In this document: positions 62,613 to 63,239 of the stretch, one piece after another
Numbering within the stretch: position 1 is the first letter of the stretch
Layout of the letters: every line of letters starts with the position of its first letter
Assembly (NCBI RefSeq): GCF_001941825.1
Contig: NZ_CP019038.1
Coordinates: 3,720,001 to 3,784,000, forward strand
Length of the DNA: 64,000 bases
Reading direction: 5' to 3'
Source: Massilia putida
GTDB taxonomy: Bacteria; Pseudomonadota; Gammaproteobacteria; Burkholderiales; Burkholderiaceae_D
Position numbers and translations under genes: made by a program
The notes under the pieces: model-generated
The model's database searches: none
Told to the model about the DNA's origin: nothing
Seen by the model: the letters and a program-made list of their open reading frames with translations, nothing else

Positions 62613-63239
62613 CTATGAGCTACCGTCATTTCGCCCAGAATCAGCCGCTTCCCCCTGCTCTATCTCTTCAATAACTTTCTCTTCGATACGGCGGTCTGGT
62701 ATGAGCCATATGACGGCCACGGCCGCGTAGACCAGGAAGCCCAGCCAAGCTGCAAACCACGACAGCGCTACACCAGTTAGATAGAGCGCGATAGATATTG
62801 CCCCTTTACGGTCGTTGTGTAGTGCTGAGGCAAGGGTGGAATTTTTTGGATGATTGACGATCAGTCCACGCGCCAGCAACAAGTAGGCGATGGAACACAT
62901 GAACAGCACGAAACCATAGGCGGCGGTGGGCCCGGTCTCGAAATGGTTCTCGCCCATCCAGGCCGTTACAAACGGAATTAGGGACAGCCAGAACAGCAGA
63001 TGCAGGTTCGCCCACAGGACGCCACCGCTAATTTCCTTTACGGCGTGGATCAAGTGATGATGATTATTCCAATAAATTCCTACGTACACGAAGCTAAGGA
63101 TATAGCTCATGAAGACCGGCCACAGTGGCAGCAAGGAACGGAAATCGCTGCCGTGCGGCGGCTTCAGTTCCAACACCATGATGGTGATGATGATGGCAAT
63201 GACTCCGTCGCTGAAGGCTTCGAGGCGGCTTGTACCCAT
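62613..63239 (-). CDS. Intact TMEM175/DUF1211 potassium channel homologue carried by the element
   Basis: The 208-residue membrane protein starts MGTSRLEAFSDGVIAI with the FSD motif of TMEM175 channels, followed by six hydrophobic segments. From EISGGVLWANLHLLFWLSLIPFVTAWMGENHFETGP onward it closely matches the split chromosomal gene, but nucleotide and C-terminal differences show it is a separate lineage. It is in the same orientation as the broken host gene and five bases after an upstream partner. It could supply the channel function lost on integration. Confidence 0.92.
   Translation of the reverse strand: MGTSRLEAFSDGVIAIIITIMVLELKPPHGSDFRSLLPLWPVFMSYILSFVYVGIYWNNHHHLIHAVKEISGGVLWANLHLLFWLSLIPFVTAWMGENHFETGPTAAYGFVLFMCSIAYLLLARGLIVNHPKNSTLASALHNDRKGAISIALYLTGVALSWFAAWLGFLVYAAVAVIWLIPDRRIEEKVIEEIEQGEAADSGRNDGSS

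Follow-up and report, generated by a model that had tools for sequence, protein, structure and literature searches.

A probable integron-like cassette system linked to a large serine recombinase and docked at a renewable TMEM175 gene

Integrons are the standard example of how bacteria stockpile small genes at one site. Integrons and CALIN hold arrays of small open reading frames (ORFs) at a single chromosomal position, with a repeated recombination site for each unit, and arrays that have no integrase occur. In the staphylococcal and Enterococcus cassette chromosomes (SCC), the Ccr large serine recombinases (LSRs) use one conserved target gene, which stays intact at its end and is renewed, and the elements can be stacked. 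Other islands, in tRNA genes, prfC and guaA, make good the 3' or 5' end of the gene that they enter: the target sequence they bring preserves the function of that gene and regenerates the site. The logic of serine integrases is that attP recombines with attB to give attL and attR. Carriage of the DUF1211 (TMEM175) family by islands is already in print, in a figure legend of PMC4129442 that places a DUF1211 gene on streptococcal chromosomal islands; the targets named in that paper are mutL and rpsD, not DUF1211, and the word 'serine' is absent from its main text. Gene-disrupting LSR elements are the subject of PMC10083194, the main text of which does not mention DUF1211 or TMEM175. The open PMC literature yielded no description of TMEM175/DUF1211 as an integration site, or of cassettes of the kind reported here.

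Our analysis makes it probable, from sequence comparison, that TMEM175 serves as a renewable docking gene for cassettes in an integron-like system linked to an LSR. The window, by which we mean the whole 64,000-nucleotide stretch of Massilia putida DNA that was analysed (contig NZ_CP019038.1, positions 3,720,001 to 3,784,000), contains in its last 10 kb a TMEM175 (DUF1211) gene on the minus strand into which an element has been precisely inserted. This element (54052-63886; 9,835 bp) interrupts the host gene at codon 58. The 3' piece of the host gene, which begins at the core in codon 58 and includes the stop codon, lies at 53617-54049 (minus strand; tblastn match to residues 56-202 of the 208-residue copy carried by the element, 76% identity), and the 5' piece at 63887-64000 (minus strand, locus L004; residues 1-62 of 208, 76%), from where it extends 60 bp beyond the window end to a start codon at the equivalent of position 64060. 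The bases common to both junctions are the AA of codon 58 (TGGAAC[AA]CCAC), which give an attL core dinucleotide in the split codon at 54050-54051 (TT on the plus strand, AA on the gene strand) and an attR core dinucleotide at 63885-63886. Because joining the flanks at this AA core restores an open TMEM175 of 202 aa, the insertion is precise. The two ends of the element are attP half-sites that form a dyad with 17 of 23 matches (p about 1e-6 at equal base odds): a left arm (P') at 54052-54074 and a right arm (P) at 63863-63884. The right end has the form AAGCTCCAGTAT..ACCCA, and the right arm, which is the part that recurs in the scars described below, reads GCTCCAGTATACGAATAACCCA on the gene strand.

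By its domains, 2-bp core, dyad attP and precise insertion, the element qualifies as a predicted LSR integrative element. The LSR (integrase) gene adjoins the left end (54078-55769, plus strand; the start may be at 54096), and its product matches PF00239 and PF07508 over their cut-offs and the integrase family phrog_95, with a zinc ribbon below its cut-off; relatives of this LSR also lie in TMEM175. The minus-strand genes that follow encode a small resolvase/invertase-type serine recombinase (55884-56504; PF00239, HTH_23) with a 61% identical homologue within the Janthinobacterium element discussed below, an HTH regulator (57457-57696; PHROGs transcription-regulator matches), a T5orf172 and Sel1 protein (57889-58800; PF10544, PF08238) and a primase/helicase-like replication protein of the DUF5906 family (60349-61647; PF19263, phrog_1156 DNA primase). 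PHROGs searches with 10 element ORFs (E up to 0.001) returned integrase, invertase, primase, regulator and unknown-function families, with three ORFs giving no match, and no virion or packaging family was found among the 10. The T5orf172 and Sel1 protein also matches PADLOC PDC-S57, a candidate defence family.

The element contains an intact TMEM175 gene (62613-63239, minus strand) that would provide an attB of its own. It encodes 208 aa, matches PF06736 over the full domain (E 4e-33, cut-off passed) and retains the RLEAFSDGVIA start with its FSD motif, and from domain, motif and length its product is predicted to be a channel. The preliminary description of this DNA had presented the gene as full length and oriented as the broken host gene, and both statements are correct, host and carried copies being on the minus strand. 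It also placed the gene next to the right end; the gene is near that end but not at the very end, as a cargo gene of the DUF6680 family (63244-63777, minus strand; PF20385, E 3e-55) intervenes between TMEM175 and the end at 63885, its stop 4 bp from the TMEM175 start. 'Highly similar' to the host gene was too strong a term: carried and host proteins share 78% amino acid identity, with dN 0.145, dS 1.58 and dN/dS about 0.09, on the basis of which the carried copy looks foreign and under purifying selection. When 5.8 billion proteins were searched, the nearest match other than itself was 91% identical. The rejoined host protein, in turn, matches its counterpart in a relative (genome G017) at 94% identity over 190 aa, and by this comparison the host copy looks like the native one. 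The main claim, that insertion breaks the host channel gene and brings a whole replacement, is upheld by the split at codon 58 and the low dN/dS of the carried copy.

We compared the element with its closest LSR relatives. An LSR alignment scan of 84,980 species genomes gave 344 stretches encoding a relative, of which the best 80 loci were used; the addition of 78 viral-contig loci with more distant LSRs brought the total to 158. Among these best 80 of 344 and the viral loci, the three closest relatives are from Rugamonas rivuli (46% identity), a Janthinobacterium metagenome-assembled genome (44%) and Massilia agri (43%). Only these three of the 158 loci hold TMEM175 sequence (tblastn with the carried protein, E 0.01; 0 of the 78 viral-contig loci), and each of them has its TMEM175 interrupted at the position seen in the window. 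The window's right junction also ends the Rugamonas (L080) and Janthinobacterium (L081) elements, which have attP dyads of 13/23 and 15/23, respectively; the M. agri junction is only a loose match to the attP arm. In the M. agri element (L067/L082) the LSR lies on the opposite (N-terminal) side, and the right arm is more divergent. Among plasmids and phages, relatives at E below 1e-40 came to one record each (32.5 and 33.6% identity).

No whole TMEM175 lies between the gene pieces in any of the three elements. The M. agri and Janthinobacterium genomes have no other TMEM175, and the Rugamonas genome has one further full-domain TMEM175 of a longer-domain type. Because two of the three host genomes thus have no other copy, loss of TMEM175 seems to be tolerated and compensation not obligatory. 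The preliminary description had interpreted the carried gene as built-in compensation and proposed a survey of LSR elements for co-carried TMEM175. That survey goes against the proposal in its general form: the window's element does carry an intact, selected replacement, but the three closest LSR elements at the same spot have no channel gene.

The right junction of the element recurs elsewhere as a scar, in which TMEM175 codons 1-58 run directly into the right attP arm. Across 62 genomes of the genus, several have N-terminal TMEM175 fragments that end near residue 60 and lie beside full-length copies. Most inspected fragments end like the window's right end, in TGGAACAAGCTCCAGTAT, a loosely conserved stretch and then ACCCA, with few variants; fragments in which no junction was found (G037, G024 and others among those of the 62 genomes) were left out of the scar count. 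At up to three mismatches the junction pattern occurs in 14 of 392 genomes of the family, the window's included, at 15 places, and its reversed control in none; given this recurrence and the 17/23 dyad, the junction is not a chance arrangement. Under relaxed criteria, the 14 loci contained 24 matches of at least 19/29, with none on the opposite strand and one for the reversed control, and 21 of these were counted as scars after three weak matches had been dropped (L062 at 11153, L065 at 5450 and 5820). All 21 scars are upstream of TMEM175 and co-oriented with it. The largest array, in G026, has five scars, one of them decayed, and G040, G129 and G277 have two each. The exact scar pattern was absent from viral contigs.

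A full-length LSR of the clade is present in only 3 of the 14 scarred genomes, those of the window, Rugamonas and Janthinobacterium; G277 has a 74-codon fragment match. In each of the 11 scarred genomes with no full-length LSR (G277 included), an intact TMEM175 ORF of 190-205 aa follows the last scar. This, together with the five scars of G026, bears out the earlier suggestion that the target site is kept available. In eight of the nine scarred genomes of the genus (the exception is G040), the genes flanking the locus are common to other genomes, and the arrays therefore appear to occupy one chromosomal locus with variable content. The order of scar decay in G040 and G129 fits 'newest next to TMEM175', but that in G026, where the nearest scar is the most decayed, does not; array polarity is not consistent across the three.

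Between each scar and the next scar or TMEM175 lies a small unit (19 scar-flanked units, about 0.35-1.2 kb). Most units consist of one plausible ORF, the cargo ORF having been chosen by judgement in several; unit 2 of G277 and the unit of G020 have two ORFs each, and in unit 1 of G277 the long ORF lies on the other strand. The spacing of the last cargo ORF from the TMEM175 start ranges, in 12 of 12 arrays, from an overlap of 14 bp to a gap of 85 bp. We scanned 17 units with an ORF against Pfam, leaving out unit 1 of G040 and unit 1 of G277. Seven gave a family over the cut-off (DUF6680, TIR_2, COQ7, DUF4279, Cys_rich_CPCC, DUF2806 and Integron Cassette Protein Hfx_Cass5, the last a marginal match at 26.9 bits against a cut-off of 25), and the other 10 did not. 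The idea that the cargo is exclusively defensive was rejected, as PADLOC matched only the TIR protein among nine cargo or near-array proteins. This cargo protein of G026 (L060, 9725-10681, minus strand) has a C-terminal TIR domain (PF13676) and gives PADLOC PDC-S66 and Thoeris-like matches, which make its gene a candidate single-gene defence cassette. COQ7 family genes are found at the arrays of two genomes (L061, 11058-11591, minus strand; L060, 13157-13777, minus strand), in one genome as cassette cargo, in the second at a position upstream of the first scar. At L065 (5649-6329) and L066 (6169-6672) an ORF runs from the TMEM175 fragment region through the P arm into the cargo, and these ORFs may encode fusion proteins.

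We also searched metagenomic proteins with a 66-aa scar peptide, which matched 2,513 short-protein clusters at E <= 1e-8. Among the matches listed (120 of the 2,513), the departure from TMEM175 comes at one and the same residue in every case and is followed by a P-arm-like tail; this tail fits YWN[KR][LH][QR] in 107 of these 120, the other 13 being close variants, and an intact NHHH occurs in none, while the other 2,393 clusters may include contig-end fragments. Many of the listed scar fragments keep the start codon and frame. We then looked for contigs of the same exact size in base pairs among 72 LSR, 119 scar and 118 TMEM175 records. LSR matches and scars have six sizes in common (0.3 expected by chance; one is the Rugamonas genome), scars and intact TMEM175 five (1.5 expected), and LSR and intact TMEM175 two (0.5 expected), of which only the 6,552-bp size comes from the same source. 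At that size there is an LSR (P0032) and a full TMEM175 (P0213) with a carried-type C terminus, so that the 6,552-bp contig may hold a second LSR element with a whole TMEM175.

A locus without the element core gives a further view of how the gene may be renewed. At L254 (genome G364), the order is a frameshifted 5' half of TMEM175, the P arm, one cargo ORF, a whole foreign TMEM175, and then CTGGAACAACC with the orphaned old 3' half, with CTGGAACAA on both sides; no LSR of the clade was found in this genome and no left P' arm at this locus. Similarly, a decayed second 3' half lies behind TMEM175 at L257 in Janthinobacterium. Together with the window, these arrangements suggest that whole TMEM175 genes are brought in. 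To map crossovers, we took 33 intact TMEM175 genes, set one paralog aside and subjected the other 32 to codon divergence profiles and a MaxChi-type scan. The gene proved to be mosaic with diffuse breakpoints; the exact crossover is for that reason not fixed. G004, G026 and G017 have a patch before the core in common with the carried TMEM175 and look native after the core, and G017 is mixed further upstream, so that the mosaic patterns do not separate homologous deletion from half-site recombination. A GC3 test of the hybrid genes was suggestive only.

These observations fit a system whose driving enzyme is, or originally was, an LSR specific for TMEM175, and in which a unit beside the right attachment half-site would comprise the P half-site, a small cargo ORF and TMEM175. 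Integration would split the resident TMEM175 at codon 58, within the core AA, and leave the first 58 codons and the P half-site behind as a scar. The incoming intact TMEM175 would restore the channel and offer a new attB, and the next cassette could therefore dock there, so that arrays would grow upstream of one intact TMEM175. The window looks like the product of an attP x attB reaction, with cargo and TMEM175 beside attR, and would be the uneroded state from which the core (replication genes, LSR and attL) is later lost. One way in which this could happen, to which we give close to an even chance, is deletion of the core by homologous (RecA) recombination between the carried TMEM175 and the orphaned 3' half, which are direct repeats. 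Alternatively, and with rather less probability, circles with a B/P half-site would recombine with attB and contribute both cargo and a further 5' half. The remaining weight goes to spread purely by homologous recombination. All three have the same outcome, in which the site that was used is turned into a scar and a fresh one for docking lies downstream. On this model every scar would originate from LSR recombination, and TMEM175 would be kept because it is both useful and a target. We put forward only tentatively, at somewhat less than even probability, the more specific idea that cassettes of P half-site, small ORF and renewable TMEM175 constitute an unrecognised gene-capture platform, in which circles with a B/P half-site recombine with attB and TMEM175 is both attachment site and selected passenger.

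The cassette model has to be weighed against other explanations. The window is the only full element with LSR, cargo and a whole TMEM175 that we have seen, and the role of the LSR in 11 of the 14 scarred genomes is inferred, because a full-length LSR of the clade is missing there. One rival reading is that the arrays spread and grow by ordinary homologous recombination, in which donor DNA with scar, cargo and TMEM175 enters a recipient TMEM175, anchored in the scar on one side and the intact gene on the other, after an integrase had seeded only the first scars. The mosaicism of TMEM175 at several points, the lack of a full-length LSR at most arrays and the shared flanking genes in eight of nine scarred genomes of the genus are all in keeping with such a history. 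Even so, every new cargo would still have to arrive beside a P half-site, the scars stop at a common core and have a common arm, and the whole foreign gene followed by an orphaned 3' half at L254 is not what homologous exchange is expected to produce; we regard this alternative as unlikely, although it is the strongest of the rivals. Less likely again is compensation only, in which a single type of element carries a replacement channel that makes its insertion harmless and arrays are secondary. The intact carried gene under purifying selection and the single intact TMEM175 after the last scar in 11 of 11 genomes agree with it. Against it are the three closest LSR elements with no TMEM175, two of them in hosts with no other copy, and it leaves the small-gene cargo, the arrays and the abundance of scars unexplained. 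Because each scar comes with a small cargo, arrays occur that have no integrase and scar variants are very numerous in metagenomes, the evidence points to a cassette-collecting system rather than to a single self-compensating element.

Two further explanations concern the nature of the parts, and both seem to us very improbable. If the N-terminal fragments were a natural family of short TMEM175 proteins rather than scars, the start codon and frame kept in many of them would be expected; yet beyond residue 58 the tail is the attP arm that LSR elements of three genera have, with unrelated sequence after it, and several fragments are frameshifted or contain stops. Nor are the cargo genes easily seen as ordinary integron cassettes with the scars as unusual attC sites. 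One cargo does match Hfx_Cass5 just over the cut-off, and the others are varied small ORFs, but the repeated site combines TMEM175 coding sequence in one half with an LSR attP arm in the other, and an integron integrase (IntI tyrosine integrase, TIGR02249) was found over the cut-off in 0 of the 14 scarred genomes, with sub-threshold matches in 14 of 14, as in 14 of 14 control genomes.

On the cassette model, the TMEM175 system resembles integrons in its anatomy and SCC in its enzyme and target renewal, while departing from each in a defining feature that we tested. Like integrons and CALIN, the arrays are made of small-ORF units with one repeated site each and may have no integrase, and one cargo marginally matches Hfx_Cass5. 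Unlike integrons, they are linked to a serine rather than a tyrosine integrase, the border site is an LSR attR, and the docking gene itself is carried and renewed. Common to SCC are the LSR, a single conserved target gene and a renewal of the target that permits stacking. Instead of ccr in rlmH with a restored target, however, the target here is TMEM175, split mid-gene in codon 58 and replaced by a whole carried copy, and the units are gene-sized, with only the attR half left behind. As in tRNA, prfC and guaA islands, the element brings sequence of its target gene and renews the site, but these islands restore one end of the gene, whereas the TMEM175 unit brings all of it and places the cargo between scar and new gene. 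LSR domains, a 2-bp core, a dyad attP and a single target gene family link the element to the gene-disrupting LSR elements of PMC10083194, in the text of which neither a whole replacement target gene nor scar arrays, both present here, are noted.

If the tentative idea of a gene-capture platform is right, these loci would be a counterpart of integrons based on a serine integrase, and Oxalobacteraceae-type bacteria might hold thousands of such cassettes. If the cassette model is right, they would be a second system for stockpiling small genes, similar to integrons in anatomy but using another recombinase and a docking gene that codes for protein and is renewable, and would indicate that this solution arose more than once. 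The model would also explain the abundance of truncated 'DUF1211' proteins in metagenomes and open a new reservoir of cargo genes, including the TIR protein, the Hfx_Cass5-like protein and the 10 of 17 units without a family. It offers a directly testable case of target-site renewal through whole-gene carriage.

The other end of the window appears to hold a second island, one end of which is duplicated next to an ssb-like gene (names here are taken from the translations). Two overlapping tyrosine-recombinase-like ORFs occupy positions 1-2452, and the first 65-70 or so residues of the second recur as a fragment at 11431-11826, beyond an apparent type I restriction-modification locus (5050-10995).
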